From: Pontiella sp. | GTDB lineage: Bacteria > Verrucomicrobiota > Kiritimatiellia > Kiritimatiellales > Pontiellaceae | Assembly (NCBI GenBank): GCA_029939385.1 | Contig: JAOZSZ010000010.1 | Span: forward strand, 1-14,737 | DNA: 14,737 nucleotides | Direction of reading: 5' to 3' | Part shown: positions 573-14,737 of the stretch, one piece after another | How positions within the stretch are numbered: the stretch's first letter is position 1 | Layout: each line of letters opens with the position of its first letter | Notes under the pieces: generated by a model | The model's input: only the letters and a program-made list of their open reading frames with translations | Told to the model about the DNA's origin: nothing | The model's database searches: none | Made by a program: the position numbers and the translations under genes

Positions 573-586
573 AAAAAAGGAACCCT

Positions 587-952: not shown

Positions 953-959
953 TTTTCGG

Positions 960-2660
960 TTAGCCGAACGATTGGCGTAATTGTTCTTCCGCGGCATTTT
1001 TCCACTCCTCAGAAATAGAAGCGTTGGTTCGAACGTAGAGCCGCCGCGAGACGATTAGATTAAAAGCCTCGGCCGAGGCAAATCGATCGAGAAGATGCGA
1101 TGGGTGGCGTTGGATACATTTTGCGAGTTGCTCTATTAGATCCAGTGGTTCTTCGTGCTCGGGAACTAATATAAATTGCCAAAGTCCATCCGGCTCGGTG
1201 GTGATGGCTTGGTCGATAAACGTTTCGATAGCACCGCAATGGTTAAAAAGATTTGATCCGTGAATGAGTATGGCACGTCGATTGCCCCGGCCGGGAAGAG
1301 TTTGGTTTAGTTGATCCACATGAATGCGGTGTTGTTCATGAAAGAGGCCGCGCAGTCGTTGTCCGCAAAAGCGTGGGGTGATGGGGTCGGCGGGTAAATG
1401 GGGATGTTCATCGAGCAGGATTTCAATCTTTTGAATATCATCAGGCGAAAGATGTGCCGTTTGTTTAATGCCATATGGCGGCCGTTTTTCGTGAATAAAA
1501 TCCCACTTCGCGCAGTCGTTACGCAATACCGTTCCTGGAAGAATGAGCGTCTGCATACATTGAACCTGCACGTCAGATCCAAAGGCCAGTCCCCAGTCTA
1601 GACTTTGCTGAACTTCGGTAAGGGTCTGCCCGGGCAGTCCATACATAATATCGAGTACAACATGTACGCCAGCTTTGCAAAGAGCGCTTATACCTTCGGC
1701 CGTTTTGTTGAGCCGAATAGGGCGGGAGACGTTTTTGAGTACCTTCGGGTCGATGCTCTGTACGCCGACTTCGACCGCAGTGAAGTGGGCCTCGCGCATA
1801 AGGCGGGCTTGCGTTTCGGTTAAGGTGTCGGGGCGGATTTCTGCAAAGAAAGCAATGCGATGGTTGCGGTTGAGTTGGGCAAGTTCAGTGAGTAGTTCGG
1901 TGAAATCGGAGCGGGCGTTAAAGGTGGGATCGACGAATCGTATTTCGGTGGCGCCGAGGTCGCGAAAGCGTCGGATACGTGCAAGTACCTGTTTTTGGGT
2001 CAGAGCGCGTAGGCCGGAGTGGAGCTGGTAGTAGCGGCAATAAGAACAAGTGAGCGGGCAACCGCGTACGGTTTCGAGATAAACCACGGGACGGTTTTGT
2101 ACGCAGCGCATGATGGTCTCTTCGCTCGGTTGCGCGGCGGCCAATTCGACGGGAGGTGGTGGCAGGGTTCCCCATTCCCAACCGTTGGATTTAAAGAGGG
2201 CCAGGTTGTCGAAATAAATCGGTGTGCCGGTGCGCCATGCCGAGAGTAGGGCCGGAAAGGTGGATTCACCTTCTCCGGTTATGATGGCATCGAATACCGG
2301 TGGCTCTTCGAAAAGGAGGGGATGTTCTTTCGCCACCTCGGGGCCCCCAACCATAATCTTGAGGGAACTCTTTTTTTCTTTTAATAGAGCAGCGAGGCGG
2401 AGGGTGCGCTCGATATTCCATAAATAAAGGGTGCAGGCAAGAATGTCGGTGCCGGAAGAAAGGATTTTTTCGGCTAAGTGCTGGGTGTCGAGTTCATCCC
2501 ATTCGACGGGAGAAAAGGAGGAGGCATGGAAGGCGGCCTCGGGACTGTGTTGCAAGGCATGATCCAAATAAGCTCCTGCAAAAGGAAAGTTTTCTCGTGT
2601 ATTATGGGTGTCATTGTCGAGGAGAGGAAGCTGAAGATAGAGGATCTGTATTGGAGTCAT
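960..2660 (-). CDS. B12-binding-domain radical SAM protein
   Basis: This 566-residue protein has an N-terminal cobalamin-binding-like Rossmann domain (about 1-140; TDILACTLYLWN at 71-82, IMVGGPEVAKEHP at 102-114, DAIITGEGE at 124-132). A radical SAM barrel follows (about 190-400), with the [4Fe-4S] cysteines in GCPLTCSYC (C201, C205, C208), then RFVDPTFN, the GVQSIDP turn at 299-305 and YGLPGQ at 340-345. About 165 further residues form an uncharacterised C-terminal domain. The architecture matches the large B12/radical SAM class (methylases, cyclases, BchE-like), and the substrate cannot be read from sequence. No classical DxHxxG B12 motif is obvious, so cobalamin may bind base-off or not at all. 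The ATG at 2660 is the only start codon near the conserved N-terminus. Its Shine-Dalgarno (AGGAG, 2682-2686) is about 20 nt away because a minicistron intervenes. It is divergent from proS. Confidence 0.88.
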   Translation of the reverse strand: MTPIQILYLQLPLLDNDTHNTRENFPFAGAYLDHALQHSPEAAFHASSFSPVEWDELDTQHLAEKILSSGTDILACTLYLWNIERTLRLAALLKEKKSSLKIMVGGPEVAKEHPLLFEEPPVFDAIITGEGESTFPALLSAWRTGTPIYFDNLALFKSNGWEWGTLPPPPVELAAAQPSEETIMRCVQNRPVVYLETVRGCPLTCSYCRYYQLHSGLRALTQKQVLARIRRFRDLGATEIRFVDPTFNARSDFTELLTELAQLNRNHRIAFFAEIRPDTLTETQARLMREAHFTAVEVGVQSIDPKVLKNVSRPIRLNKTAEGISALCKAGVHVVLDIMYGLPGQTLTEVQQSLDWGLAFGSDVQVQCMQTLILPGTVLRNDCAKWDFIHEKRPPYGIKQTAHLSPDDIQKIEILLDEHPHLPADPITPRFCGQRLRGLFHEQHRIHVDQLNQTLPGRGNRRAILIHGSNLFNHCGAIETFIDQAITTEPDGLWQFILVPEHEEPLDLIEQLAKCIQRHPSHLLDRFASAEAFNLIVSRRLYVRTNASISEEWKNAAEEQLRQSFG

Positions 2661-2671
2661 GTGGGGAACAT
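2657..2671 (-). promoter_or_regulatory. Four-codon leader minicistron coupled to the radical SAM gene
   Basis: On the minus strand a good Shine-Dalgarno, AGGAG (2686-2682), is followed after 10 nt by ATG TTC CCC ACA TGA (peptide MFPT). The TGA overlaps the ATG of the radical SAM gene in an ATGA arrangement. The radical SAM start has no Shine-Dalgarno of its own at normal spacing. The plain reading is that ribosomes start on the minicistron and reinitiate at the overlapping ATG. It could also be a fortuitous ATG between a distant ribosome binding site and the real start. Confidence 0.35.
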
Positions 2672-2773
2672 AGTGGGTGGACTCCTGTAAATGAATCGGA
2701 AAGCCATTTTTTTTCGTGTATTTGGAGGGTGTGGGTTGTAGATTGCGCGTTTCATTTTTAGGAGAATCAGTTT

Positions 2774-4294
2774 ATGGCAAAGCAGAAGAAAACAGCGATT
2801 AGCCCTACTCGCGGCGAAAATTATCCGGAGTGGTATCAGCAGGTGGTGCGCGCGGCGGAGTTGGCAGAAAATAGCGATGTGCGCGGGTGTATGGTGATCA
2901 GGCCTTGGGGCTATGCGCTGTGGGAAAATATTCAGCGTAGCCTGGATAAAATGTTTAAGGATACGGGCCATGAGAATGCCTATTTCCCTCTTTTTATTCC
3001 GAAGAGCTATCTGGAGAAGGAGGCCGAACACGTTGATGGTTTTGCCAAGGAGTGTGCGGTCGTGACGCATCATCGTCTGGAAATGGGCGAGGATGGCAAG
3101 CTTCATCCGGCGGGCGAGCTGGAGGAGCCGTTGATTGTGCGGCCAACGTCGGAAACCATTATTGGAGCCACCTATGCAAAGTGGGTGGAGAGCTATCGTG
3201 ATCTGCCGATCCTGATCAATCAGTGGGCCAATGTGGTGCGTTGGGAAATGCGTACGCGCCTCTTTCTCCGTACCACCGAATTCCTTTGGCAAGAAGGGCA
3301 TACGTGCCATGAAACAGAGGCGGAGGCTTTAGAGGAAACCCGTACGATGTTGGAGGTTTATAAAACCTTTGCGGAGGAATATATGGCGATGCCGGTGCTG
3401 ACCGGCGAAAAGACGCCGGGCGAGCGTTTTCCTGGCGCAGTGAGTACGCTCTGTATTGAAGCGATGATGCAAGATCGTAAAGCGCTTCAGGCGGGAACAA
3501 GCCATTTCTTGGGTCAAAATTTTGCGAAGGCGTCAAATATTCAATTTAGTAATCGGAGTGGGGCGAAGGAGTTTGTTTGGACTACTTCATGGGGCGTTTC
3601 AACCCGATTGATTGGTGCCATGATTATGACGCATGCTGATGATGATGGCATGATGATGCCCCCGCGCCTTGCACCGAGTCATGTTGTGATTCTGCCGATC
3701 ATTCGCAAGGAGGAAGATCGCGAGGCGATCATGGAATATTGTAATGAATTAGCTTCCTCTCTTCGGGAAAAACGATTCCACGAGCGCGATGTTGAAGTGG
3801 TGGTGGATGGTCGTGATATTAATGCGGGCGAAAAAGGTTGGAGCTGGGTGAAGAAGGGCATTCCCATTCGTGCGGAGGTTGGCCCTCGTGATATGGCGAA
3901 TAAAGCGGTCTTTATGGCGCGGCGGGATACGGGAAAAAAGGAAGGCGTTGATAAGGATGTCTTTGTTGAGAATATCGTTCAGACATTGGAGGATATTCAA
4001 CAAGGAATGCTTCAGAAGGCGCTCGATCACCGTACGGAAAACACGAAGGAAATTGATTCTTACGATGAGTTTGTGGCTTTCTTTACGCCAGAAAACAAGG
4101 ATCGCCCAGAGGTGCACGGTGGCTTTGCTATGAGCCATTGGTGTGATGATGAAGTCTGTGAGAAAAAGATTAATGATGAGCTATCTGTAACGATTCGTAC
4201 GGTTCCATTGGATCGCTCTGAAAGCAGTACGGGCGAATGCATCTGTTGCGGAAAGCCTAGCGAAGGTCGAGTTGTATTTGCGAAAAGCTATTAA
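2774..4294 (+). CDS. proS: Proline--tRNA ligase, archaeal/eukaryotic type (ProS type 3)
   Basis: ProS charges tRNA(Pro) with proline in the cytoplasm. At 506 residues without the roughly 180-residue editing insertion, and with a C-terminal zinc domain, this is the type 3 (archaeal/eukaryotic-like) form. Visible landmarks: GCMVIRPWGYALW (38-50, motif 1 region), the proline-binding PTSE loop at 124-127, motif 2 RWEMRTRLFLRTTEFLWQEG at 156-175, AGTSHFLGQNFAK at 240-252, and the motif 3 region GAMIMTHADDDGMMMPPRLAP at 281-301. The anticodon-binding domain spans about 303-410. Zinc ligand candidates are C457, C462, C489 and C491/C492, and the chain ends in the family-typical Tyr. The Shine-Dalgarno AGGAG (2760-2764) sits 9 nt before the ATG. 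It is divergent from the radical SAM gene and appears monocistronic. Confidence 0.97.
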   Translation: MAKQKKTAISPTRGENYPEWYQQVVRAAELAENSDVRGCMVIRPWGYALWENIQRSLDKMFKDTGHENAYFPLFIPKSYLEKEAEHVDGFAKECAVVTHHRLEMGEDGKLHPAGELEEPLIVRPTSETIIGATYAKWVESYRDLPILINQWANVVRWEMRTRLFLRTTEFLWQEGHTCHETEAEALEETRTMLEVYKTFAEEYMAMPVLTGEKTPGERFPGAVSTLCIEAMMQDRKALQAGTSHFLGQNFAKASNIQFSNRSGAKEFVWTTSWGVSTRLIGAMIMTHADDDGMMMPPRLAPSHVVILPIIRKEEDREAIMEYCNELASSLREKRFHERDVEVVVDGRDINAGEKGWSWVKKGIPIRAEVGPRDMANKAVFMARRDTGKKEGVDKDVFVENIVQTLEDIQQGMLQKALDHRTENTKEIDSYDEFVAFFTPENKDRPEVHGGFAMSHWCDDEVCEKKINDELSVTIRTVPLDRSESSTGECICCGKPSEGRVVFAKSY

Positions 4295-4302
4295 AAGGAA
4301 TC

Positions 4303-4323
4303 AGTAATGTTATACGCATTACT
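4303..4323 (+). terminator. Weak hairpin after proS
   Basis: AGTAATG (4303-4309) and CATTACT (4317-4323) form a perfect 7-bp stem with a 7-nt loop, starting 8 nt after the proS stop. It is A+T-rich and no uninterrupted T-run follows (only CCCATTTT at 4333-4340). It is therefore a poor intrinsic terminator and may act as a 3'-end stabiliser or be incidental. Confidence 0.25.
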
Positions 4324-4367
4324 CGTTACTTGCCCATTTTAACCGGTTGAACTAGATTGTTTTGATT

Positions 4368-5420
4368 ATGCGATTTTATAAATATTTCTTATTGTTTTTT
4401 GGGGGTCTTTTCCTTTTTGGTGAGGTTGTTCATGCCGCTACGGAGGAGGCCTTTATTGTTGAAGAAAAGGGGCGAAATACGTGGCATATGATGCTGGATA
4501 AGAAGATGGATACCTCTTCCAAGCAATGGGTCTATGCTCGTAAAACTCAGAATAAGGGTTGGCTGAAAAAGGCGGATCGGCGGATGCTCTATTTGGTGCG
4601 ACGTTGGCCCAATAGCAAAGAGGCTCCTTGGGCACAACGCGCTCGAGGGGATATGCTTTATGCGCGTGGGAAGTTCAAAGAAGCATTTCGGGAGTATCAA
4701 CATTTAATCAATAACTATTCGAGTCGAATGCTTGATTATTCCTCGGTGCTGGAAAGTCAGTTTGCTATTGCCGTTAATGTTATGGAGCAACGGCGGATGC
4801 GATGGTTTTTTGGAGGGTATCGTGCGCCAGAATATTCGGTGGAATATTTCGAGGATGTGATTCGTAACGGACCGCAGGGCGTACGGGCTGCAGAGGCACA
4901 GTTCTTTATTGGGCAAGCTTATCGGGAGGCCAATGAGTTAGAGATGGCAATTTCTGCTTATGGGGTATTGGGATATCGCTATTCCGAGAGTTCTTTTGCC
5001 GAAAAGGCTGCATGGTTGCAGATTATTTGCTTAGACAAGTTGCGGGAAGAATTTCCAAATAGTTTGGATATTCTTGATCGTCAATTGACTTCTACTACAG
5101 TTTTTTTGACCACCTATCCCCAGTCGACCCACAAGGGGAAGATTATTCAATTGCGGAATCGTCTTTATGAAATGAAGGCAAAAAAGGTGTTCGACGAAGC
5201 CATGTTTTACGCCAAAATCCCCAAAAAGCCAAAAGCAGCTATTATTTACTATGAACGGATGCTTAAAGAATATCCCAAAAGCAAGCTCGTTCCTGAGGCT
5301 GAAAAGCAGATTGTTGAGCTAAAGGATTTGATGGCAATCTCTCGCGCTACACGAATATCTGTTCAGCAAAAAACAGAAGTAATGACCAATAAAAAGGGTT
5401 CTGAAAATGTTGAAAAGTAG
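4368..5420 (+). CDS. BamD-like periplasmic TPR protein upstream of lptD
   Basis: This 350-residue protein starts with a signal peptide (MRFYKYFLLFFGGLFLFG core, likely cleavage after VHA at 21-23). Tetratricopeptide-like helical pairs follow: LYLVRRWPNSKEAPWAQRAR and DMLYARGKFKEAFREYQHLI (about 75-114), AEAQFFIGQAYREANELEMA (175-194), then FDEAMFYAKIPKKPKAAIIYYERMLKEYPKSK (275-306). The 'A..YYxxxLxxYPxSxxxxxA' repeat and overall layout resemble BamD/YfiO, which feeds beta-barrel proteins to BamA. Unlike E. coli BamD there is no lipobox cysteine (the only Cys is C221), so it would be soluble or peripherally attached in the periplasm. The ATG at 4368 was chosen; a TTG two codons earlier (4362) is also open, and neither has a strong Shine-Dalgarno. 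It overlaps lptD by 14 nt, so an outer-membrane barrel or LPS-assembly role is inferred from context. Confidence 0.75.
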   Translation: MRFYKYFLLFFGGLFLFGEVVHAATEEAFIVEEKGRNTWHMMLDKKMDTSSKQWVYARKTQNKGWLKKADRRMLYLVRRWPNSKEAPWAQRARGDMLYARGKFKEAFREYQHLINNYSSRMLDYSSVLESQFAIAVNVMEQRRMRWFFGGYRAPEYSVEYFEDVIRNGPQGVRAAEAQFFIGQAYREANELEMAISAYGVLGYRYSESSFAEKAAWLQIICLDKLREEFPNSLDILDRQLTSTTVFLTTYPQSTHKGKIIQLRNRLYEMKAKKVFDEAMFYAKIPKKPKAAIIYYERMLKEYPKSKLVPEAEKQIVELKDLMAISRATRISVQQKTEVMTNKKGSENVEK

Positions 5421-7455
5421 GCGCCTTGTTGGATTATTGTTTTGGGGCAGCCTGCTTTCCTTTGCTGGGGCAAGTGATTTTGATCTTCCTGATGAGCCCT
5501 TTGATATTCGCGCGGGACGGATGGAGTATGTCGATGGAACCCTTGTGGCTAGCGGTGGGGTGACGGGGCGTTTTGAGAATGTGATGATCCGTGCCGATCG
5601 GATTCGTGGTAATCCTGAAACAGGCGACCTGCATGCCGAAGGTGATATTTTGTTCGAGCGGGGAAACATGCTTTGGCAGGGAAGTGAACTCGACTATAAC
5701 TTTATTAAACAAGATGGATTATTTGGTCCATCGTCGCTTTATTTTGAACCTGCTTTTATGAGTGTTGATCATGTTGAGCGGGTCTCTACAAATGAATATT
5801 TATTACGCGGTGCGACCTTCACCACCTGCCCGAAAGATCATCCCCATATTAGTGCGCATGCCAAGGAAGCGCGATTGATTGGAGAAAAATATATTCAGGC
5901 AAAAGGGGTGACGTTTTATGTGGGGAAGGTTCCGGTGATGTATGTGCCATTCTGGCGTCACACCTTGAGCGAAAACATGTTTACCTTTAATTTTGGTATC
6001 GGAAGCGAGTGGGGGACCTATCTTCAAACTAAAACCACGGTCCCTATTACCGAAAATGTGAACTCCATCACAGATGTTAATTTATACAGTCATCGGGGCG
6101 TCGGATTGGGGCAGGGGTTTGCCTGGGAATATCCTAAAGCCGTGGGGGCGTTTGCCGCCTTCTATCTGAAGGATGAGGACCCCCATTCCCGCTATGATTT
6201 GTTAGATCCCATTGGGCAACAGATCGGTGATGATCGCTATCGTTTTAAGCTGGAGCATATCCAAAACTTTACCGACACCCATTATCTAAATACGAAATGG
6301 AACTATCTCAGCGATCCGGCCATTCTTGAAGAATTCTTTAAGTCAGAATATCGCAATAATGCACAGCCCGAAAATTATGCATCGTGGGTCTATGGAAATA
6401 GCTATGTTGGCTCCGAAGTTTTTGTGAATAAACGCTTAAATGATTTTTATGAAAATACCGATCGGGTTGAATATTCAGCCGACCTCTATCGCACTCGCCT
6501 TGGAAACTCTCCATTCTTCCTTCAGAGCGAAAACGCCATCGCGCACCTCGAACGGGTTCATTCCTCAACAAATACTCTTGCTGGCAACGCATATGATTCG
6601 GTACGCATCGATTCCGCTAATGCGCTCTACCTTCCGCAACGATACGGTTTCCTAAATCTGGTTCCGCGCGCTACTTATCGCGCTACCTACTATTCTAAAA
6701 CCGGCGGCGGCAGTGAGGAGTTCCGCCAGATTCCTGGGGCAGGAATGGAGGTTTCGTTTCAGGCTACCAAAATTCTTTCAGAGCAAGAGCATTGGTACGG
6801 AAAAGGGCTACGTCATAAGATTGAACCGTATGCCGATTATATCTATGAAAACACTTCGATTTCCGCGAATCGGCTATTTCCAGTTGATGGTTTTGATGAT
6901 GTTGATACGTTGAAAGACGAAAATAAAGTGCAAATCGGTTTGCGTAACGTGCTGCAAACCCAGCGAGATGGGCGGTTGGCTCGTTTCATCGATCTTGATC
7001 TCTACACCTATTACCTTGTTGAAAAGAATGGGGCGTCAAATGACTTAGACTTGCTCTATATCGATGCACGTATGCCCCTCACTAAACGGACAATGGTAGA
7101 TCTAGAGGGTAAGTATGACTGGTATGCTGGTAAAATTTCTTATTTCAATACACGTATTTCCTACGATCACGATGACCTCATTTTTTCACTTGAGCATTTG
7201 TATGAGGAGAGTGCTCGTTCGCTGTGGACCCCTCGCATTGATCTGTTTCCAACAGGGAATACTTCGGTTGAGGTATATGGGCGCTACGATGACAACGATA
7301 ATGATTTGCAGGAGGTTGCGTTGGTTGGGTATAAGAATTTTTGCTGTATGCGCTATGGTCTTGGCTATCATTACTATGATGATGGAGAGCAACGCATTAT
7401 GTTTTCTATCGGTCTCTCTGCCTTTCCAGAAGCCCGGATCTCTAGCGGATTCTAG
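5407..7455 (+). CDS. lptD: LPS-assembly outer-membrane protein LptD (OstA/Imp)
   Basis: LptD is the beta-barrel that, plugged by LptE, inserts LPS into the outer leaflet of the outer membrane. This 682-residue version has a signal peptide (about 1-22, LLFWGSLLSFAGA). An LptA/OstA-like jellyroll follows (about 30-180: FDIRAGRMEY, IRADRIRGNPETGDLHAEGD, YLLRGATFTTCPKD, KVPVMYVPFWRH), then a barrel domain with LRHKIEPYADY at 468-478, RLFPVDGFDD at 489-498 and a final Phe typical of outer-membrane barrels. It keeps the consecutive Cys pair near the C-terminus (C646-C647 in KNFCCMRYGLGY) and one N-domain Cys (C141, equivalent to E. coli C173). There is no Cys at the start of the mature chain (E. 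coli C31), so only one of the two interdomain disulfides can form. Its ATG lies inside the end of the upstream TPR gene, implying coupled translation. Confidence 0.93.
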   Translation: MLKSRRLVGLLFWGSLLSFAGASDFDLPDEPFDIRAGRMEYVDGTLVASGGVTGRFENVMIRADRIRGNPETGDLHAEGDILFERGNMLWQGSELDYNFIKQDGLFGPSSLYFEPAFMSVDHVERVSTNEYLLRGATFTTCPKDHPHISAHAKEARLIGEKYIQAKGVTFYVGKVPVMYVPFWRHTLSENMFTFNFGIGSEWGTYLQTKTTVPITENVNSITDVNLYSHRGVGLGQGFAWEYPKAVGAFAAFYLKDEDPHSRYDLLDPIGQQIGDDRYRFKLEHIQNFTDTHYLNTKWNYLSDPAILEEFFKSEYRNNAQPENYASWVYGNSYVGSEVFVNKRLNDFYENTDRVEYSADLYRTRLGNSPFFLQSENAIAHLERVHSSTNTLAGNAYDSVRIDSANALYLPQRYGFLNLVPRATYRATYYSKTGGGSEEFRQIPGAGMEVSFQATKILSEQEHWYGKGLRHKIEPYADYIYENTSISANRLFPVDGFDDVDTLKDENKVQIGLRNVLQTQRDGRLARFIDLDLYTYYLVEKNGASNDLDLLYIDARMPLTKRTMVDLEGKYDWYAGKISYFNTRISYDHDDLIFSLEHLYEESARSLWTPRIDLFPTGNTSVEVYGRYDDNDNDLQEVALVGYKNFCCMRYGLGYHYYDDGEQRIMFSIGLSAFPEARISSGF

Positions 7456-7465
7456 CGCATGATCA

Positions 7466-7500
7466 TAAACCCAAAACAAAAGTTTTGGGTTTAGTTTTCT
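7466..7500 (+). terminator. Intrinsic terminator after lptD
   Basis: TAAACCCAAAAC (7466-7477) pairs perfectly over 12 bp with GTTTTGGGTTTA (7482-7493) around an AAAA loop, followed by GTTTTCTTA. It begins 10 nt after the lptD stop. The opposite strand has only a short T-poor tail, so it probably works mainly for lptD, although folE converges on it. Confidence 0.82.
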
Positions 7501-7546
7501 TATACTCAATCATCTTAGCCTTAGCCCAAATTGGTAAGGAATGAAG

Positions 7547-8089
7547 TTATTGCTTGATGAGTTGAAGGAATTCGTTGCGCGTGGAGGGTTCTTTTCTGAA
7601 GCTACCTAGCATGGCGGAGGTGACCATGCAGGAGTTTTGTTTTTCGACGCCCCTCATCATCATGCAAAGGTGTTGCGCTTCAATCACTACGCCAACGCCT
7701 TCGGGAGCAAGAGTATCCATAATGGATGTCGCCACTTGGTTGGTAAGTCGTTCTTGAATCTGGAGTCGACGTGCAAAGAGATCCACAATGCGTGCAAGCT
7801 TACTGACGCCAAGTACTTTCCCTTCAGGAATATAGCCGATATGACATTTCCCAAAAAAAGGAAGGATATGATGCTCGCAGAGACTGTAGAGTTCGATGTC
7901 TTTAACAATAACCATATGATTATCTTCAACGGTGAAAATGGCATTATTAATTACATCCTCTAGCTTTTGGCGGTAGCCTTTCGTTAGGAACTCTAATGCT
8001 TTGGCGGCACGATCGGGAGTGCCAACTAATCCTTCGCGCTCGGGGTCTTCACCAATTTTAGAAAGTAGTTGTTGATATAATTCATTCAT
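7547..8089 (-). CDS. folE: GTP cyclohydrolase I (FolE type IA)
   Basis: FolE converts GTP to 7,8-dihydroneopterin triphosphate, the first step of tetrahydrofolate and of pterin/queuosine precursor synthesis. The 180-residue protein has [10 protein letters not shown] near the N-terminus, [22 protein letters not shown] (CEHH at 71-74), [19 protein letters not shown], and [11 protein letters not shown] with C142. Zinc ligands C71, H74 and C142 and the catalytic H73 are all present, so it is the zinc-dependent type IA enzyme. The start at 8089 is preferred over the ATG at 8101 because GGAG (8099-8096) lies 6 nt upstream of the former, while the latter has no Shine-Dalgarno and would contain that GGAG inside its own codons. 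It converges on lptD and lies 143-155 bp downstream of the kinase pair, with its own leader. Confidence 0.96.
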
Positions 8090-8095
8090 AAAATT

Positions 8096-8130
8096 CTCCA
8101 TTTAATGGAGGGAAATCTAAGCTTTCCCTC
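8096..8130 (-). promoter_or_regulatory. Leader of folE with two mutually exclusive hairpins
   Basis: In the folE message, GAGGGAAA (8130-8123) can pair with TTTCCCTC (8115-8108): a perfect 8-bp stem with a 7-nt loop. The last three bases of that stem overlap the start of a second hairpin, CTCCAT (8110-8105) with ATGGAG (8101-8096): 6 bp with a 3-nt loop, which buries the folE Shine-Dalgarno GGAG. Both cannot form fully at once, so the leader could switch between exposed and hidden ribosome binding site. No known riboswitch consensus was recognised. The rest of the gap (8131-8244) holds no gene and no convincing promoter; it contains G-runs and an imperfect bulged inverted repeat (8199-8233). 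Confidence 0.4.
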
Positions 8131-8244
8131 GCAAGCGCGCAAGGATGATCGATCTCATGGTAAGGATTTAAAATACGTTGAATTAAGATACGGTTTTGGT
8201 GATTAACTTAAGGGGATAAGGGGGAATTATCACTTAATAGCATT

Positions 8245-9294
8245 CTAGATTGAAATACATTTAAAAAGAGTTCGGCCGGATGAATCTTGACTGTATTGAA
8301 CCTTGGCGTTGATGTCACTTGCTCGTTGGTGAATTAGATGCAATCCAGTGCCTTGTGCAATTAAATCCGGCATAGGAAGCCCATCATTAATAATGGTTAG
8401 GGAGAAGGTTTCATTATTGATCTCTAATTGAATATTAATATGTTCGGATTTAGCATGTCGCATGGCATTGGTAACCGCTTCGTGTGTAATGCGGTAGAGT
8501 GGTAGGGCAATCTTTTCTGGGATTTTCTGATCCGGGTTGTTAATGACAATCGAGAATTCTGTTCCAACTGTTTTAGTTAAGTTTGAACACATTTTTTCGA
8601 GAGTTTTTTTAAACCCTGTTTCGGTCATAGTTTGTGGGGATAGTTTTTCGGTTAGGTCGCTAACTTCTTCAATATTTTTCTCTGCAATCTTTACTAGTTT
8701 TGCGGCATCAACTGCTTGTGGAGAATTGGTGTAGGATAAAAAATTCACCAAAGTTTCACTATGATGCAATAAGTCAGTTAATTGATTATTCACGATACTG
8801 CAGAGTTTTTTTGATATTTCGGCACGCTTGGCTTCCGAATAATTTATCATATATTCGGAAACTTCTTGAAGTTCTTCATTTCTTTGTTGAATACGTTTTT
8901 CAAGAGTCAGTGTAAGCTCAATCGTTTTTTTATAATTATTTTTCACGATGGTGATAAATGACACGATAAGTAGCTGGGCGATGTATCCTCCCGGTTCTAA
9001 CGCAACGTTCCATCCTTGTAAGCTATCGAGGTGGTACATCATTATTAACATGTTATATGGCAAGGAGAGCCCCGCAGTGAGTAAACCGATTTTGTACTGA
9101 TAAAGCCATGTGGCGAAACCACAGAGGAGGAGACTCGGTAGTAATATTGATATTTCACAATACGGATAGGCAATGATTGTAAATATTATGTAGATTAGCC
9201 ACGCACTTTCAAGGAGCAGCCGTCTCGGCTTTTTTCGTATTGATAGCAGGCTATTCCATACCCCTTTAAGCCTTTGGATCCCCGTCTGAATCAT
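8245..9294 (-). CDS. Four-TM histidine kinase paralogue: ATP-binding intact, phospho-His replaced by Cys
   Basis: This 349-residue membrane protein has four predicted TM helices (about 27-43, 47-64, 68-88, 102-118), a charged coiled coil (about 119-150), a HisKA_3-type dimerisation helix and a C-terminal HATPase_c domain. The ATPase part is canonical: RITHEAVTNAMRHA with N276 of the N box, INDGLP with D304/G305, and GTGLHLIHQRA with G315/G317. The phospho-acceptor helix reads ISKKLCSIVNNQLTDLL. Aligned without gaps to its neighbour's IGQDIHDGVGQYLTGML, the His-Asp pair is Cys165-Ser166 (codons TGC AGT, TGC at 8802-8800). It cannot autophosphorylate in the usual way but could phosphorylate a partner. 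Its ATG overlaps the upstream kinase stop in ATGA, with AAGGG upstream, so both are made from one message. The DNA is visibly more A+T-rich than the flanking genes. No response regulator is adjacent. Confidence 0.87.
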   Translation of the reverse strand: MIQTGIQRLKGVWNSLLSIRKKPRRLLLESAWLIYIIFTIIAYPYCEISILLPSLLLCGFATWLYQYKIGLLTAGLSLPYNMLIMMYHLDSLQGWNVALEPGGYIAQLLIVSFITIVKNNYKKTIELTLTLEKRIQQRNEELQEVSEYMINYSEAKRAEISKKLCSIVNNQLTDLLHHSETLVNFLSYTNSPQAVDAAKLVKIAEKNIEEVSDLTEKLSPQTMTETGFKKTLEKMCSNLTKTVGTEFSIVINNPDQKIPEKIALPLYRITHEAVTNAMRHAKSEHINIQLEINNETFSLTIINDGLPMPDLIAQGTGLHLIHQRASDINAKVQYSQDSSGRTLFKCISI

Positions 9295-10301
9295 TTCTTT
9301 CCCTTTTTGAGATCTATAGAATATTCCTTTCGAAAGCCACCGTTAGGAAGAGTATGAAAGGTGGAATTTCCATTAATAGTCCGGAGCCGATACTGCATTA
9401 TTTTGGAAGTGATTTCGTTCAATGAAGGCGTATTTGACGGGAAGTTTGTGGCTTTAATACTGATTAAACAATGATCTTCCTTAGTTGTGAGTTTAATTTT
9501 TATATTTTTAGCTTTGTACTTACTAATGGAAGAATAGATCGTTTCATGAATGATTCTAAATAGATTTTGAGTGGTTGAAGTGGGCATATTAAGATCATCT
9601 CCTTCGTATTCCATATGAAAGGTCGTCAATGAAACTTCGCTGAAATATTCTATCATTTCCTCTAAGGTTGCCTTGAATGTCATTTCTGTGAATTGAAGGG
9701 GTAATTGGGATCGGGAAAGTTTCCTGATATTCTGCATACATTTTTGAATCCGTTGCGTCATCCGCTCTGCCAAGCCCGTTTCCGAGTGTTGTGCCTCTTT
9801 TAACTTAAGGGAGAGTGCCTCACTATAGAGTAACATGCCGGTGAGGTATTGCCCCACGCCATCATGAATGTCCTGCCCGATCCTGATGCGTTCTTTTTCA
9901 TCGTCTTCAATAAGTTGTTGAGTGAGTTTATCCAACTCAGTGGTGGCCTTATCAACCCGCAAAGCAAGGGTGCTTTTGAATTCATCTAACTTATCCTGCG
10001 ATTCACGTATTAAACCGATTATTAGAGCCGAAATTATAGATAAAATGATGCCAGAAGGGTTGAACGATTGAAGAATAAAGTAGAGATCTCCAGAGGCAAA
10101 GTAAAGAATGAGCGTGTTTAGTAGGAGAAAGGCAATGATCGATAATAGTCCAATACGAACTCTATAAAGCCAGCTACAAAGACCAATCAGGGCAATAGAG
10201 GCAATGAGTGCGGAATCGTATCGCTCACTTGTAATTACGATAAAGGCCATAATATAAATTATGACCATTGTCCCAAAAAGAATATGTTTATTCAGAATCA
10301 C
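9291..10301 (-). CDS. Four-TM histidine kinase paralogue: phospho-His intact, ATP-binding domain degenerate
   Basis: This 336-residue NarL/DegS-class sensor kinase homologue has four TM helices (about 7-25, 30-46, 50-69, 80-99), a coiled coil (about 100-135) and the canonical HisKA_3 acceptor helix EKERIRIGQDIHDGVGQYL with H146 and D147. The C-terminal domain still aligns with HATPase_c, but its ATP-contacting residues are gone. The N box is HETIYSSISK (Asn to S257), the D box is SIKATNFP (Asp-Gly to T285-N286), and the GxGL box is TSKI at 298-301. It should accept phosphate but not bind ATP normally. It shares topology and motifs with the next gene (SWLYRVRIGLLS versus TWLYQYKIGLLT), so the two arose by tandem duplication. 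The start is GTG at 10301, closed upstream by a nearby in-frame TGA; ATG at 10268 is an alternative. There is no Shine-Dalgarno, and a strong promoter ends 7 nt upstream. Confidence 0.86.
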   Translation of the reverse strand: MILNKHILFGTMVIIYIMAFIVITSERYDSALIASIALIGLCSWLYRVRIGLLSIIAFLLLNTLILYFASGDLYFILQSFNPSGIILSIISALIIGLIRESQDKLDEFKSTLALRVDKATTELDKLTQQLIEDDEKERIRIGQDIHDGVGQYLTGMLLYSEALSLKLKEAQHSETGLAERMTQRIQKCMQNIRKLSRSQLPLQFTEMTFKATLEEMIEYFSEVSLTTFHMEYEGDDLNMPTSTTQNLFRIIHETIYSSISKYKAKNIKIKLTTKEDHCLISIKATNFPSNTPSLNEITSKIMQYRLRTINGNSTFHTLPNGGFRKEYSIDLKKGKK

Positions 10302-10307
10302 TTTGAA

Positions 10308-10335
10308 ATTATATCAGAGGGAAAATGGTTCACAA
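10308..10335 (-). promoter_or_regulatory. Sigma70-type promoter of the kinase pair (extended -10)
   Basis: On the minus strand: -35 TTGTGA (10335-10330), 16-bp spacer, then an extended -10, TGATATAAT, with the consensus TATAAT at 10313-10308. Initiation 6-7 nt downstream would fall on or next to the GTG start at 10301, giving a leaderless message, or a 33-nt leader if the ATG at 10268 is used. Confidence 0.6.
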
Positions 10336-10388
10336 TCATTTTAGATATCGAGCTAGCAAATTAGGGGATGATTAGGAGTAAAATCCAA

Positions 10389-10417
10389 TTGCGAGAAGTG
10401 GGATGCATATCTATAGT
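10389..10417 (+). promoter_or_regulatory. Candidate promoter of the gcv genes
   Basis: -35 TTGCGA (10389-10394), 17-bp spacer, -10 TATAGT (10412-10417). Initiation would fall near 10424, just before the ATG at 10427, again an almost leaderless start. This supports 10427 rather than 10403 as the gcvT start. No glycine riboswitch-like sequence was seen in the 10302-10426 gap. Confidence 0.4.
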
Positions 10418-10426
10418 GCATGGCCT

Positions 10427-11515
10427 ATGAAAAATACACCTCTGCATCAACAACATATCGAACTCGGCGCCCGTATGGGCGAATTTGGCGGATGGGATAT
10501 GCCTATTCAGTACGCTGGAATTCTTCAGGAGCATCAACACACCCGATCAAAGGCAACCATTTTTGATATTTGCCATATGGGCGAATTTGAACTTTCTGGT
10601 CCAAATGTACTTCAGGATCTAGAAAAATTACTGACCTGTAATTTGGCCTCATTAGACGTCGGACAGGTTCGTTATGGTTTTATGCTTAATAACAAGGGGG
10701 GCACGATTGATGACCTTACTTGTTATCGTCTCGGCACCCAGCGTTATATGCTTGTCGTTAATGCAGGAACGATCGATAGCGATGCGGAATGGGTTAAGAG
10801 TCAAATTTCTGAAGACACTCTTTTTGCCGATCTTTCCGACCAAACGGCTAAGCTTGATGTGCAAGGTCCTCAGTCGCGCAAGGCTCTTGAATCTATCTTT
10901 GAATGTACTCTTCCGGAAATTGGATATTTCCGCACTACAGAAGTCGAGCTTGATGGTATTTCTTGCATGATTAGTCGCACGGGTTATACCGGCGAATGGG
11001 GCTATGAAATTTATGCCGATAGCGCGGCAGCGTTGCCGCTTTGGAATAAAATTCTTAAAAGTGAACTGGTTGAGCCTGGTGGTCTTGGTGCCCGCGATAC
11101 ACTTCGTCTTGAAATGGGATACCCGCTTTACGGACACGAGCTTTGTGATACTCGTACGCCAGCCCTTACTACGCGCGGTATGTTTATTAGCAAGAAAAAG
11201 GAATTTACAGGCATTGCTGATGTGCGGAACGATCTTGAAAATCCAAAAGAGCTTTTGGTGGCTTTGCAATTTGATTCCAAGCGCGCAGCTCGCGAGCATG
11301 ATAAAGTTTTCTTCAAAGAGGTTGAAGTGGGTACGGTCACCAGCGGTTCGCTGGCTCCAAGTCTTGGGGTTGCTATTGCAATGGCTTTTGTTCGTTCCGA
11401 TTGTGCCGAAGAAGGCCAAACTCTTCAGGTTGAGATTCGAGGAAAGCACTTCCCAGCAACGATCGTTAATCTTCCATTTTATAAGAGCGGAACAGCCCGC
11501 GGCTTAAATTTATAA
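10427..11515 (+). CDS. gcvT: Glycine cleavage system T-protein (aminomethyltransferase)
   Basis: GcvT transfers the methylene group from the aminomethyl-lipoyl arm of H-protein to tetrahydrofolate, releasing ammonia. From ATG 10427 the protein is 362 residues, matching the usual length (about 364). Landmarks: TPLHQQHIELGARM and GWDMPIQY near the start, CHMGEFELSG (49-58), GGTIDDLTCY with the catalytic Asp region at D95-D96, GYTGEWGYEIY (186-196), GLGARDTLRLEMGYPLYGHEL (219-239) and a late TSGSLAPSLGVAIAMAFV. An upstream in-frame ATG at 10403 would add MHIYSAWP; the homologous N-terminus and the promoter position favour 10427. It is followed after 78 bp by gcvPA. The canonical gcvH between T and P is missing. 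It is divergent from the histidine kinase pair. Confidence 0.94.
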   Translation: MKNTPLHQQHIELGARMGEFGGWDMPIQYAGILQEHQHTRSKATIFDICHMGEFELSGPNVLQDLEKLLTCNLASLDVGQVRYGFMLNNKGGTIDDLTCYRLGTQRYMLVVNAGTIDSDAEWVKSQISEDTLFADLSDQTAKLDVQGPQSRKALESIFECTLPEIGYFRTTEVELDGISCMISRTGYTGEWGYEIYADSAAALPLWNKILKSELVEPGGLGARDTLRLEMGYPLYGHELCDTRTPALTTRGMFISKKKEFTGIADVRNDLENPKELLVALQFDSKRAAREHDKVFFKEVEVGTVTSGSLAPSLGVAIAMAFVRSDCAEEGQTLQVEIRGKHFPATIVNLPFYKSGTARGLNL

Positions 11516-11593
11516 AAAGAATAGGAATAAAGCGGTTCCTTCCCTGCTGTTTATCAATCGTTTTACTTATACATTTTAAAATAAGGTGAAAGT

Positions 11594-12943
11594 ATGAAAA
11601 AAACACCATTTTGTGCAACGAGTGAACAGGATCAAGAGATCATGTTTAAGGTGTTGGGAATTAATAATTTTGATGATTTATTCGAAGCTATTCCCGATGA
11701 ACTAAAATCTGAAACCTTTAATGTTCCCGAGGGTCTTTCCGAAATGGAAATGATGCAACATATTCGCCAGATTGCATCGAAAAATTCGACTGATTTAGTG
11801 AATTTCTGTGGTGCAGGTTTCTATGATCACTACATTCCTTCTGCGGTTGATGCGCTATCAAGTCGTGGTGAGTTTTATACCGCTTACACGCCTTATCAGC
11901 CCGAGGCTTCGCAGGGCACCTTACAGGCGGCATTTGAATACCAAACCGCAATCTGTCGTTTGACCGATATGGAGGTGGCTAATGCTTCACTTTTCGATGG
12001 CGGTACTGCAATTTTTGAAGCCATTATGATGGCGTTGCGTCAGACCCGTCGCAAAAAGGTGCTGGTTGATGAAGGGGTTAACCCAATCTATCGGAAGATG
12101 CTTCGTTGCTACATGCAGAATCTTTCATTTGAGTATGAGGAAGTGGCTCTCTCTAAAGATGGTATTGCTGACCGTGCGGCTTATATTGACATACTAGATG
12201 ATTCCGTTGGTGCTGTTGTTTTGCAGAACCCGAATTTTTTCGGTTGTCTGGATAATTTTACTGAGCTAGTGGACAGCATCCATGCGGTGAAGGCATTAGC
12301 GATTATGTCAGTCTATCCTATAGCACTTTCACAGATTGAAACCCCCGGATCTATGGGGGCAGATATTGTGACGGGCGAAGGGCAGAGCCTTGGGCTACCC
12401 CTTAATTTTGGCGGCCCATATCTTGGTTTTATGGCCGTGCAAAAAAAATTAGTCAGGAAGATGCCGGGGCGTATTGTGGGAGAAACTGTGGATGCCCAAG
12501 GGCGCCGAGGTTATGTGCTAACTCTTCAAGCACGGGAACAACATATCCGTCGCGAAAAAGCTACATCGAATATTTGTAGCAATGTTCAGCTTTGTGCTTT
12601 ACGCGCGATTATTTATCTTTCACTCATTGGAAAAGAAGGCTTTAGAGATCTGGGTCAACAGTGTATGGATCGCGCAAATTATGCGTGGGACAAGCTTACG
12701 GCTATTGATGGAATTGAACCCGTATTCGACCGTCCCTTCTTTAACGAATTTGCCATACGATTACCCAAAAGCGCCTCTGATGTTATTAGCGATCTTATCC
12801 CTCAAGGCATTGTGGCTGGGTTTCCCGTTGGGCATTACTATGAAAACATGGAAGATGTTTTGCTGCTTTCTTTTACCGAAATGCGGACCAAAGAAGAAAT
12901 TGATATTTTGGCTGTCAAGATTGAGTCCGTATTGAAAATCTAA
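11594..12943 (+). CDS. gcvPA: Glycine dehydrogenase (decarboxylating) subunit 1
   Basis: This is the N-terminal half of the two-subunit P-protein, which with gcvPB decarboxylates glycine and loads the aminomethyl group on lipoyl H-protein. At 449 residues it has the standard size for subunit 1. Visible motifs: FCGAGFYDHYIP (71-82), YTPYQPEASQGTLQ (98-111), SLFDGGTAIFEA (132-143; most homologues have YDGATA), LNFGGPYLGF, MPGRIVGETVDAQGRRGYVL and QAREQHIRREKATSNICSN. It carries no PLP lysine, as expected; that is on subunit 2. The start has a good Shine-Dalgarno (AAGGTGA). The 11516-11593 gap from gcvT contains no gene and only a weak GGAA/TTCC inverted repeat. It is co-directional with gcvPB at 11 nt. 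Confidence 0.96.
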   Translation: MKKTPFCATSEQDQEIMFKVLGINNFDDLFEAIPDELKSETFNVPEGLSEMEMMQHIRQIASKNSTDLVNFCGAGFYDHYIPSAVDALSSRGEFYTAYTPYQPEASQGTLQAAFEYQTAICRLTDMEVANASLFDGGTAIFEAIMMALRQTRRKKVLVDEGVNPIYRKMLRCYMQNLSFEYEEVALSKDGIADRAAYIDILDDSVGAVVLQNPNFFGCLDNFTELVDSIHAVKALAIMSVYPIALSQIETPGSMGADIVTGEGQSLGLPLNFGGPYLGFMAVQKKLVRKMPGRIVGETVDAQGRRGYVLTLQAREQHIRREKATSNICSNVQLCALRAIIYLSLIGKEGFRDLGQQCMDRANYAWDKLTAIDGIEPVFDRPFFNEFAIRLPKSASDVISDLIPQGIVAGFPVGHYYENMEDVLLLSFTEMRTKEEIDILAVKIESVLKI

Positions 12944-12954
12944 GAGGTGTTATA

Positions 12955-14403
12955 ATGAAGTTAATATATGAAAAATCCTCACCGGGGCGTTTCGGGGTTC
13001 CTGTATCTTCGATCAAACTTTCTTCACCGAAAGAGATTTCTAAAAAATATTTACGTAGCACACCGGCAGAGTTGCCGGAAGTTTCTGAAACAGAAGTGGT
13101 GCGGCATTTTACGGACCTCTCTCGGCTAAACTTTTCCATTGATACTCATTTTTATCCATTGGGTTCTTGTACGATGAAATACAACCCAAAGGCATGCGAA
13201 ACTGCGGCAAATCTTCCGGAACTAACGGGTATTCATCCTTTATGGCCACAATTGTATGGTCGTGGTTTGCTGGCTCAGGGGTCCCTCGGAATCCTTTATA
13301 ATATGGATCGGTTGCTTTCCGAAATTACGGGACTTGATGAGTTTACACTTCAGCCCATGTCTGGTGCACACGGAGAACTAACTGGTGTAATGATGATGGC
13401 GGCGTATCACAAGGATCGTGGTAACAAGAAAGATCATATTATTATTCCAGATTCGGCACACGGAACTAACCCGGCTAGCGCACGATTGGTTGATTATAAT
13501 GTGGTAACCATTCCGTCGGATGAGAATGGAATGATGGATTTTGATCTGTTTAAAGCGGCACTTAACGACAAGACCGCAGGGGTAATGTTAACCAGCCCGA
13601 ATACGCTCGGCGTATTTAATGTGCGAATTAAGGAAATCTGTGATGCGGTCCATGAGGTGGATGGATTGATGTATTATGATGGGGCAAACTTTAATGCAAT
13701 TATGGGGCGCTATAAGCCTGGAGATATGGGTTTTGATGTCTGTCATCTAAATTTACACAAATCATTTGCAACACCACACGGTGGTGGTGGTCCTGGAGCT
13801 GGGCCAGTAGGTGTCGGGGAAAAGTTGCGTCCCTACCTTCCTATTTCTCGGGTCATCAAGACGGAGGATGGAAGCTTTGCTCTTAACTATGATGAACCTA
13901 AAAGTATTGGCTATATCGCTCCGTTTTATGGGAACTTTGGCATCATTACGCGGGCTTATGTCTACTTGTTGATGCTAGGGCGTGAGGGAATCCTCGGAAC
14001 GAGCGATCGAGCCGTGCTTAATGCAAACTATTTACTAGAAAAACTGCGGCCGCTTTTTGGAGATAAAAAGAAAGGACGTTGCATGCATGAGTTTGTTTTC
14101 TCTGGTAGCTTTCTTAAAGAGAATGGGGTGAACACTCTTGATTTGGCCAAAGGCATGATCGATCGAGGCATTCACCCGCCAACGGTCTATTTCCCGCTTA
14201 ATGTGCCCGAGGCAATTATGATTGAGCCCACCGAGACGGAGGATCTTGATACCCTGAATAATTTTGTAAAGGTTATAGAGGAGCTGGTGGAGCTTTCAAA
14301 AATAAATCCTGAAAAGTTGCATCAAGCACCGAACACCACACCGGTGGGTCGGCTTGATGAAGTTAAGGCAGCTCGTGATATGCGATTGAGCTTTATGCTA
14401 TAA
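12955..14403 (+). CDS. gcvPB: Glycine dehydrogenase (decarboxylating) subunit 2
   Basis: This is the PLP-carrying half of the split P-protein, 482 residues. PLGSCTMKYNPK (68-79), QPMSGAHGELTG (133-144), IPDSAHGTNPASA (164-176), TSPNTLGVF (213-221), DGANFNAI (242-249) and HLNLHKSFATPHGGGGPGAG (264-283) are all intact. K269 in HKSF is the expected PLP Schiff-base lysine and the Gly-rich stretch follows it. The start has the Shine-Dalgarno AGAGGTG about 6 nt upstream of the ATG, 11 nt after gcvPA, so the two subunits are made together. An A+T-rich hairpin follows the stop. Confidence 0.97.
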   Translation: MKLIYEKSSPGRFGVPVSSIKLSSPKEISKKYLRSTPAELPEVSETEVVRHFTDLSRLNFSIDTHFYPLGSCTMKYNPKACETAANLPELTGIHPLWPQLYGRGLLAQGSLGILYNMDRLLSEITGLDEFTLQPMSGAHGELTGVMMMAAYHKDRGNKKDHIIIPDSAHGTNPASARLVDYNVVTIPSDENGMMDFDLFKAALNDKTAGVMLTSPNTLGVFNVRIKEICDAVHEVDGLMYYDGANFNAIMGRYKPGDMGFDVCHLNLHKSFATPHGGGGPGAGPVGVGEKLRPYLPISRVIKTEDGSFALNYDEPKSIGYIAPFYGNFGIITRAYVYLLMLGREGILGTSDRAVLNANYLLEKLRPLFGDKKKGRCMHEFVFSGSFLKENGVNTLDLAKGMIDRGIHPPTVYFPLNVPEAIMIEPTETEDLDTLNNFVKVIEELVELSKINPEKLHQAPNTTPVGRLDEVKAARDMRLSFML

Positions 14404-14407
14404 ACAT

Positions 14408-14426
14408 GATCATAATACTTATGATT
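14408..14426 (+). terminator. A+T-rich hairpin after gcvPB
   Basis: ATCATAA (14409-14415) and TTATGAT (14419-14425) form a perfect 7-bp stem with a TAC loop, extendable by one G-T pair, starting 4 nt after the gcvPB stop. There is no T-run and the stem is weak. It could be a poor terminator, a 3'-end structure or an operator for the next gene. Confidence 0.25.
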
Positions 14427-14486
14427 GAACGTGATGTGATTATTTAGGTCTATTTCGACGTATATGACCAAAAAAGGAGTTAGATC

Positions 14487-14699
14487 ATGATGAAAACAAT
14501 AAGTATTGCGGCGATTATCTTAATGATGGCAGGATTTTCTTCTTTTGCCGACGAGCCTCGAGCTTGTTCTATCAAACCTTCTGAATGTAAAAAGATTACA
14601 TGTTCAACTTGTGTAGCAGATAAGGTCTGTGAGAAATGCATGGCGAAGAAGGAAGTAAAGAAGTGTGGTGCAGATTGTACAAAGCGGTGCTGCGCATAA
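14487..14699 (+). CDS. Small exported cysteine-rich protein
   Basis: I do not recognise a named family. The 70-residue product starts with a clear signal peptide (MMKTISIAAIILMMAGFSSF, cleavage likely after A21). The mature part of about 49 residues holds ten cysteines: C27, C34, C39, C42, C48, C51, C60, C64, C68 and C69, including two CxxC pairs (CSTC, CEKC), a CxxxC and a final CC. About a quarter of the mature chain is Lys or Arg. Such density suggests either a metal-binding (metallothionein-like) periplasmic peptide or a disulfide-knotted one; the odd spacing matches no motif I know. The Shine-Dalgarno AAGGAG lies 7 nt before the ATG at 14487; an immediately following ATG (14490) is equivalent. 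It follows gcvPB by 83 bp and probably has its own promoter, which I could not place. Nothing is discernible after it to the window end. Confidence 0.72.
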   Translation: MMKTISIAAIILMMAGFSSFADEPRACSIKPSECKKITCSTCVADKVCEKCMAKKEVKKCGADCTKRCCA

Positions 14700-14737
14700 A
14701 TCGAAGGATTAAGAAATAATTTTAATATTGGCTTTGT

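Follow-up and report, generated by a model that had tools for sequence, protein, structure and literature searches.

Mirror-Image Residue Loss in a Conserved Pair of Membrane Histidine Kinase Paralogues of Pontiella-Type Bacteria

Introduction

Most histidine kinases are described as homodimers, in which each subunit carries both an ATP site and the acceptor histidine. Here we describe a locus in which these two functions are found on two neighbouring genes. It lies in a stretch of 14,737 nucleotides (nt) from a Pontiella sp. genome (assembly GCA_029939385.1, contig JAOZSZ010000010.1, positions 1 to 14,737), which is referred to as the window, and it consists of genes A and B, encoding full-length membrane proteins related to HisKA_3 kinases. 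Protein A has kept the acceptor His and lost the ATP-binding residues, protein B has lost the acceptor His and kept the ATP-binding domain, and the pattern is conserved among the relatives. We consider it probable that A and B together make up one heterotypic sensor histidine kinase, each supplying half of it, in which B would phosphorylate His146 of A in trans and A would pass the phosphate to a NarL/FixJ regulator.

Split and heterodimeric kinases are already known; in Mycobacterium tuberculosis, two incomplete kinases reportedly lie beside one regulator, TcrA. The nearest functional precedent is FasB/FasC of group A Streptococcus. These are reported to be adjacent membrane kinase-like proteins that interact with one another but not with themselves in two-hybrid experiments; FasC supplies the histidine (H246) and its kinase domain is dispensable (the authors propose a pseudokinase), FasB supplies the kinase domain, and FasA is the regulator (PMC12675982). 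The likeness to A and B is that of paired kinase-like proteins, one giving the His and the other the kinase domain. FasB and FasC are six-helix kinases with the regulator in their operon, one of each subunit and no arrays, whereas A and B are of the HisKA_3 (DesK/NarX) type and no regulator was recognised near them in the loci fetched. A mirror-image loss is not established for the Fas pair, FasB still having a candidate histidine, H284, that its authors did not exclude (PMC12675982).

CheA3 and CheA4 of Rhodobacter sphaeroides do not autophosphorylate alone, and CheA4 with ATP phosphorylates CheA3, from which the phosphate reaches CheY6 (PMC3591291). There, whole domains are missing and the proteins belong to a cytoplasmic chemotaxis cluster, while A and B keep all domains and lose residues. 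The same source counts 1556 of 42417 HisKA proteins in SMART without a HATPase domain, and incomplete kinases are therefore not rare as such (PMC3591291). Hik36/Hik43 is a kinase split in another way (PMC7656254), and DivL is termed a pseudo-histidine kinase (PMC9430884). Like B, DivL is a kinase homologue without the acceptor His, but it regulates a complete kinase.

To this the A/B system adds a mirror-image loss of residues in a full-length membrane pair, and arrays of acceptor subunits. In the open-licence literature we found no description of full-length partners whose complementary residue losses are fixed throughout a genus, nor of several acceptor subunits per catalytic subunit; one paper there names both Pontiella and histidine kinase (PMC10880615). 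As the two functions are separated, cis and trans phosphorylation, dimer specificity and the balance between kinase and phosphatase could be addressed for each subunit on its own. How bacteria bring further inputs into a single pathway, a question also of use for synthetic signalling, would be visible in loci that combine two or three sensors with a single catalytic subunit. It has been argued that split kinases can give switch-like responses (PMC3591291), and A/B would be a new system in which to test this.

The Gene Pair in the Window

An earlier note on the window had described two paralogous open reading frames (ORFs) overlapping by 4 nt. This is borne out by their coordinates (Table 1) and by an ungapped alignment, which begins in the membrane part and reaches as far as the N box, in which A and B are 26% identical across 267 residues; by this alignment the two proteins are paralogues. 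The ORF check of the window gives 336 amino acids (aa) and a GTG start codon for A, and 349 aa and an ATG start codon for B. The overlap of the A stop and the B start is of the ATGA type, which suggests translational coupling. An in-frame start codon of B is placed −7 to +8 nt from the stop of A in all of the 19 loci compared below, and the ATGA type is found in 11 of these.

In Pfam, A of the window matches HisKA_3 without HATPase and B matches HATPase_c without HisKA_3. The closest named kinases in NCBIfam are MctS and UhpB for both, with scores far under the cut-offs. Four membrane helices are predicted for each protein from the AlphaFold secondary structure and reading of the sequence. The same note had claimed that A keeps the acceptor His and loses the N, D and G boxes, and that Cys165 of B stands at the acceptor position; alignment and Pfam agree on the first (the N-box Asn of A is replaced by S257), and the second was found correct, all 19 genome B rows being without His. 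Its claim of intact ATP boxes in B holds for N276, G305, G315 and G317 and fails for D304 as the canonical G1 Asp, the true position of which is Asn303.

Reciprocal Loss among the Relatives

In what follows, the window genome is labelled G000, other genomes G0xx, fetched loci Lxxx and database proteins P00xx. Residues were counted in 19 complete loci (the window and L031–L048), which hold 26 As and 19 Bs; L049 and L050, both from G002 and truncated at contig ends, were not counted. The 28 B and 23 A rows from the database are partly the same as the genome rows, and the window is among them.

The acceptor His was observed in 26/26 As and 0/19 Bs, which have C, Y, L or I instead. Of the 26 As, none has a G1 Asp, none has the second glycine of the GxG lid, and 24 have lost the N-box Asn; the two As that retain it (L037 and L040:8818-9825) have lost the remaining boxes. 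Eight residues are invariant in all 19 Bs, namely N276, A277, H280, N303, G305, G315, G317 and T342. In the database rows, N276, N303xG305 and GxG are present in 28/28 Bs, the acceptor His is missing in 27/28 Bs, and His is present in 23/23 As. HisKA_3 (PF07730) was detected by Pfam in 26/26 As and HATPase_c in one of them (E 0.0068), while HATPase_c (PF02518) was detected in 19/19 Bs and HisKA_3 weakly in one (E 0.009).

Ordinary HisKA_3 relatives served as control. These were 18 kinases of the genus, 19 from outside loci with related regulators or kinases, and 6 other relatives; L177, truncated at a contig end, and L078, the incomplete A of G023, were set aside. Both the acceptor His and the N-box Asn were found in 43/43, and the split of the A/B type is absent from all 43 kinases compared. 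Neither A nor B alone qualifies as a complete HisKA_3 kinase, the HD motif and the ATP boxes being on separate proteins; His and ATP-binding residues thus reside on different polypeptides, as in a split kinase.

The two genes had been predicted to remain neighbours, with identical reciprocal losses, across genera. They do so in 19/19 complete loci, all of which belong to a single GTDB genus, so that the part on genera did not stand. Homologues combining the His and the ATP boxes at random had been named as the pattern opposed to the proposal. No such pattern was seen: the combination is found in no A and, without the HD motif, in one of the 28 database Bs (P0008). Among loci readable through their contig, none has A only or B only; in G023 the A is truncated by a contig end and B was not seen.

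Conservation, Selection and Models

Conservation within each transmitter mirrors function. Mean pairwise identity of A (26 rows) is 0.44 in the dimerisation and phospho-acceptor (DHp) domain versus 0.25 in the catalytic and ATP-binding (CA) domain, and that of B is 0.36 in the CA domain versus 0.25 in the DHp domain, with the membrane part highest at 0.42; P0077 (190 aa, without a CA domain) was excluded from this comparison. The acceptor domain is favoured in A and the CA domain in B, which is not the picture of decay.

Nonsynonymous (dN) and synonymous (dS) divergence was compared for the degenerate domains. The His-less acceptor domain of B is under purifying selection in one close pair, L042 and L046, from the closest genomes compared (dN 0.11, dS 1.15). 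For the CA domain of A, the L042/L046 comparisons gave dN 0.18–0.32 and dS 0.74–1.21. The dN/dS of these degenerate domains is thus ~0.1–0.3. Between the window and L031, dS is saturated in every domain but one.

AlphaFold models were obtained for single chains of A and of B, with a mean predicted local distance difference test score (pLDDT) of 86.6 and 84.4, respectively. The modelled degenerate CA domain of A matches the CA domain of VraS with ADP (4gt8) with a TM-score of 0.80 by target length at 2.4 Å, and the DHp domain of B is still modelled as a hairpin. Both models match DesK (3ehj, 5iuj, 7ssj), and DesK and VraS are among the best structure matches. The modelled transmitter fold of A and B is the same as that of DesK and VraS, which are complete kinases, homodimeric and with His as well as ATP boxes.

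Asn303 of B

In the ungapped alignment, the G1 Asp column of B is occupied by Asn303 (codon 8386-8388) in 19/19 genome and 28/28 database rows, compared with D in 40/43 intact kinases (DDG or DNG) in the same column. In B this Asn is followed by xGxP in 16/19 genome and 26/28 database rows. Two short kinases beside regulators in a sister family, L192 and L194, likewise have Asn at G1. Since the other ATP boxes are untouched, a working domain in which the base contact is changed seems the likelier reading of B, rather than a dead one. The invariant Asn303 may reflect altered nucleotide recognition by B.

Arrays of Several As with One B

The gene order is A(1–3)-B in 19/19 loci, B being single and last in each. 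In 5/19 loci (L038, L039, L040, L042 and L046), this B is accompanied by two or three intact As, and remnants of A are present at L041:9086-9349 (87 aa) and L042:9657-10115 (152 aa). Copies of A thus seem to come and go in the arrays, whereas there is always a single B.

Two pairs of As stand out. In L046 (8814-10841), identity is 27% in the membrane part, 96% in DHp and 75% in CA, and the switch is sharp, falling at about residue 105, where the membrane part ends; the DHp dS is 0.12. In L039 (9493-11528), the corresponding values are 39%, 92% and 51%. From the sequences, this pattern looks like exchange of the sensor cassette, or like a gene conversion affecting the transmitter, with one B common to both As. 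In the other seven of the nine within-array A-A pairs, DHp identity is 0.46–0.54. Uniform acceptor domains as a general rule of the arrays were considered and rejected, the mean of 0.60 within versus 0.52 between arrays being carried by two of the nine pairs.

We would give nearly an even chance to the arrays being of a plug-in kind, with one ATP-using B common to exchangeable sensor-acceptor As. The membrane sensors would be swapped, the acceptor region, which would have to fit B and a single orphan regulator, would be kept uniform, and Asn303 of B would perhaps mark altered nucleotide recognition.

A protein of 619 aa from one metagenome record (P0055) was considered as an A-B fusion. It is without helices three and four of B, and the frames are joined just before the stop of A, as an indel error would give; it was not used as evidence.

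Distribution and History

The window genome falls in a genus-level group with Pontiella sulfatireligans and P. agarivorans (Kiritimatiellota). A/B genes are present in 21/28 genomes of this genus, in G002 on two contig ends. No full pair outside the genus was found among the matches listed from 240 class genomes, those of the genus among them; the outside matches listed cover the shared transmitter region and not the membrane part. Among the matches listed, the pair as such was seen in one Pontiella-type genus only. Complete kinases that align along the greater part of A or B were found in P0032 and P0033 (over 93% of B), P0079 (97% of A) and P0083 (83% of A), at 23–28% identity and from other or unstated lineages. 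All four have a hydrophobic N-terminal part and keep both His and ATP boxes, and they appear to resemble a complete ancestor of A and B.

A transmitter tree was built by a quick search on all columns, trait columns included. A and B together stand apart from the other kinases used (SH-aLRT, the Shimodaira–Hasegawa-like approximate likelihood ratio test, 98), the Bs group together (93), and the As are not resolved as a single group. With A and B apart and B as one group, the duplication and both losses would most simply precede the radiation of the group, each loss looking like one ancestral event that has since been kept.

In G011, G020 and G022, gcvT is directly adjoined by cstA (of the carbon-starvation transporter family) with nothing between. 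On a prolyl-tRNA synthetase (ProRS) tree with midpoint root, these three genomes branch early and G015 is nested. G015 is without the pair at gcvT, which adjoins a glycoside-hydrolase-like gene there, and in G014 gcvT adjoins cstA without the pair. Because of the early branches with adjacent gcvT and cstA, and of G014 and G015, the most likely course is an insertion of the pair between gcvT and cstA, followed by at least one or two losses; alternatively, the pair may have been lost early.

Candidate Response Regulator

No regulator gene was recognised next to A/B in the loci fetched, the neighbours being identified by Pfam for part of the loci. The window genome, which is 81% complete, has two GerE-bearing genes, of which one is beside the ordinary kinase of ~445 aa (G000:C47) and the other is an orphan NarL/FixJ regulator (G000:C130). 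Orthologues of the orphan occur in 23/28 genomes (that of the window and 22 at 58–72% identity), which are 21/21 genomes with A/B genes and 2/7 others (G010 and G014); G011, G015, G016, G020 and G022 have neither A/B genes nor the orphan. The co-occurrence of pair and regulator across the 28 genomes has a Fisher p of 2e-4, which ignores kinship.

Outside the genus, the matches of the orphan listed from 230 class genomes (genus members included) reach ≤41% identity. Twelve of the 16 best outside-genus matches listed were fetched, and 12/12 adjoin a HisKA_3 kinase. Eight further loci were picked from the kinase and regulator lists jointly, so that the 20 loci are not an unbiased sample; one of the 20, L191, has a kinase without such a regulator. 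In these Kiritimatiellota pairs of HisKA_3 kinase and NarL regulator (L176–L190, L192–L194 and L021), the kinases are homologous to A and B, and the regulators include the closest outside-genus relatives of the orphan among the matches listed. They differ from the A/B system in that the kinases are complete, have mostly a soluble sensor (mostly PAS-type by eye) and adjoin their regulator. Near the orphan, no A- or B-like kinase was found in 23 genomes within flanks of ~1.5 kb (less at contig ends, more in some), using the A and B profiles only, by which other kinds of kinase would be missed. L118 (G003:C160) is a gene other than the orphan, and the kinase hit there was left uncounted.

The orphan is the best candidate for the partner of A/B because it co-occurs with the pair, because its outside relatives are beside HisKA_3 kinases and because it is without an A/B-like kinase nearby. 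In the window genome a zinc-ribbon coiled-coil gene adjoins the orphan, and in relatives an ArsP_1-type permease does (a Pfam match in L098, read by eye in L092 and L099). As a binding site of the regulator, a block conserved in the gcvT–A interval was considered and rejected. It is present in G014, which has the regulator and no pair, its core persists, though weaker, in genomes without the regulator, and in the window, as in several further loci, it is unrecognisable with 7 mismatches allowed; it may be part of the gcvT leader.

Proposed Mechanism and Alternatives

The association of the two proteins, the direction of phosphate flow, the identity of the regulator and the signal are what we infer from these observations. 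A would be a membrane sensor with His146 and without use of ATP, B a subunit with the ATP-binding domain and without the acceptor His. The two would associate through the coiled coil and the DHp helices, an A-B heterodimer being the simplest form. A signal would be sensed by the membrane part of A; B would use ATP to phosphorylate His146 of A in trans, and phosphorylated A would hand it on to a NarL/FixJ regulator from another site in the genome, the orphan being the most likely one. In the arrays, each A would have its own membrane sensor and the single B would be common, so that one catalytic subunit could read several inputs. The theme of the signal is perhaps carbon or amino-acid supply, a guess from the flanking cstA and gcv genes.

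Several points weigh against this proposal. The exchange of the G1 Asp for Asn harms ATP binding in some GHKL proteins, and the activity of B is not certain, with Asn at G1 in every member. P0008 is a database B with His in the acceptor column (HH, not HD) in addition to the ATP boxes. The losses in A and B are probably two ancestral events, so that the counts are not independent. The CA domain of A is looser in the tandem copies of L039 (dN 0.37, dS 0.70). As for the regulator, G014 has the orphan with the pair missing from the gcvT site, and G010 (59% complete) has the orphan with no pair seen. The co-occurrence amounts to approximately three independent events on the species tree, and independent pairs are too few for a tree-aware sign test.

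G014 and G010, in which the orphan is kept without a detected pair, leave a serious possibility, which we nevertheless do not favour, that the pair works as proposed on the regulator of the ordinary kinase (G000:C47), or on one not found, and that the orphan serves something else. The distribution is less easily explained in this manner, as the orphan is present in 21/21 genomes with A/B genes and the ordinary kinase was seen in 14 of the 21. Moreover, only two GerE-bearing genes are present in the window genome at its 81% completeness, one of them beside its own kinase.

It is also conceivable, if unlikely, that A and B form separate homodimers and that B phosphorylates A between dimers, similar to the action of CheA4 on CheA3, with no mixed dimer. 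The residue pattern requires only that B reach the His of A, and up to three As per B would fit a freely exchanging catalyst. Nevertheless, B retains a membrane part, a coiled coil and a DHp hairpin, which is beyond the needs of a soluble catalyst, and overlapping or abutting genes favour co-assembly.

We regard it as improbable that B is a regulatory pseudokinase tuning another kinase, in the way of DivL and CckA, with A being phosphorylated by an unrelated complete kinase. Asn at G1 in all members would suit such a role, and other complete HisKA_3 kinases are present in many genomes among the matches listed. The adjacent partner A is incomplete in 26/26 cases, and a complete partner of the DivL kind may be a distant kinase. 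However, N276, H280, G305, G315 and G317 would hardly be kept invariant in a nucleotide-free domain. The ordinary kinase of ~445 aa of the genus is not among the matches of 7/21 A/B genomes, which leaves room for other kinases, and it changes 7 times on the tree versus 3 for the pair.

That A and B are decaying duplicates heading for loss is hardly credible: the A remnants in L041 and L042 and the absence of the pair from the gcvT site of G014 and G015 would agree with it, but the two genes are full-length, in-frame and complementary in 19/19 loci, down to 22% identity, and dN/dS is well below 1 for both degenerate domains between L042 and L046.

Features and Neighbouring Genes

Table 1. Features of the A/B locus and its surroundings. 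Positions are those of the window unless a contig is named.
Feature	Position	Strand	Basis
Gene A, membrane HisKA_3 kinase subunit with phospho-accepting His; putative sensor and acceptor	9291..10301	-	HisKA_3 only (Pfam); H146 in 26/26 rows
Gene B, membrane paralogue without acceptor His, with conserved ATP-binding domain; putative catalytic subunit	8245..9294	-	HATPase_c in 19/19 rows
Overlap of A stop and B start, ATGA, 4 nt	9291..9294	-	ORF coordinates
Codon of acceptor His146 of A (IGQDIHDGVGQ)	9864..9866	-	Sequence reading and alignment
DHp domain of A, residues 132-205; most conserved part of A	9687..9908	-	Pairwise identity, 26 rows
Degenerate CA domain of A, residues 225-333, GHKL fold in model; without G1 Asp and GxG lid	9303..9629	-	Alignment, model
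Codon of Cys165 of B, aligned to the acceptor His	8800..8802	-	C, Y, L or I in 19/19 genome rows
Acceptor domain of B without His, residues 151-224, predicted helical hairpin	8623..8844	-	Helices H101-188 and H194-217 (model)
CA domain of B, residues 244-349: N276, H280, N303-x-G305, G315-x-G317	8248..8565	-	Six residues invariant, 19/19 + 28/28 rows
Likely promoter of A-B: TTGTGA, 16 nt, TATAAT; ends 6 nt 5' of the GTG of A	10308..10335	-	By eye
gcvT, divergent neighbour fixing the locus	10403..11515	+	PF01571; A adjoins gcvT in relatives
folE (GTP cyclohydrolase I), downstream neighbour	7547..8101	-	Pfam
Orphan NarL/FixJ regulator, 222 aa	G000:C130:3-671 (L088)		Receiver and GerE domains by Pfam

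A −10 element of the GATAT type is seen by eye in L031–L035 at the position matching the likely promoter of the window. The A-B message is probably leaderless, judging from the distance between promoter and GTG as read by eye over 10299-10335.

The genes gcvT, gcvPA and gcvPB are divergent from A. By eye, the start of gcvT is possibly at 10427 (MKNTPL), where an aligned ATG is present in relatives, rather than at the first ATG of the ORF at 10403. A small gene between the two gcvP genes of L038 (3888-4472) has a zeta toxin/AAA_33 match, and clustering gave homologues in L041, L045, L048 and L202. Downstream of B, a cstA-like gene or piece is found in 12/19 loci, two of these being short pieces, and it is missing in the window (8102-8244).

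At gathering scores, no Rfam match to a riboswitch or other known RNA was found in the window. The window also encodes a 682-aa protein without a Pfam match (5407-7455), which by eye looks like an outer-membrane protein of the LptD/OstA type, and a B12-binding radical SAM protein at 960-2660 (PF02310, PF04055).

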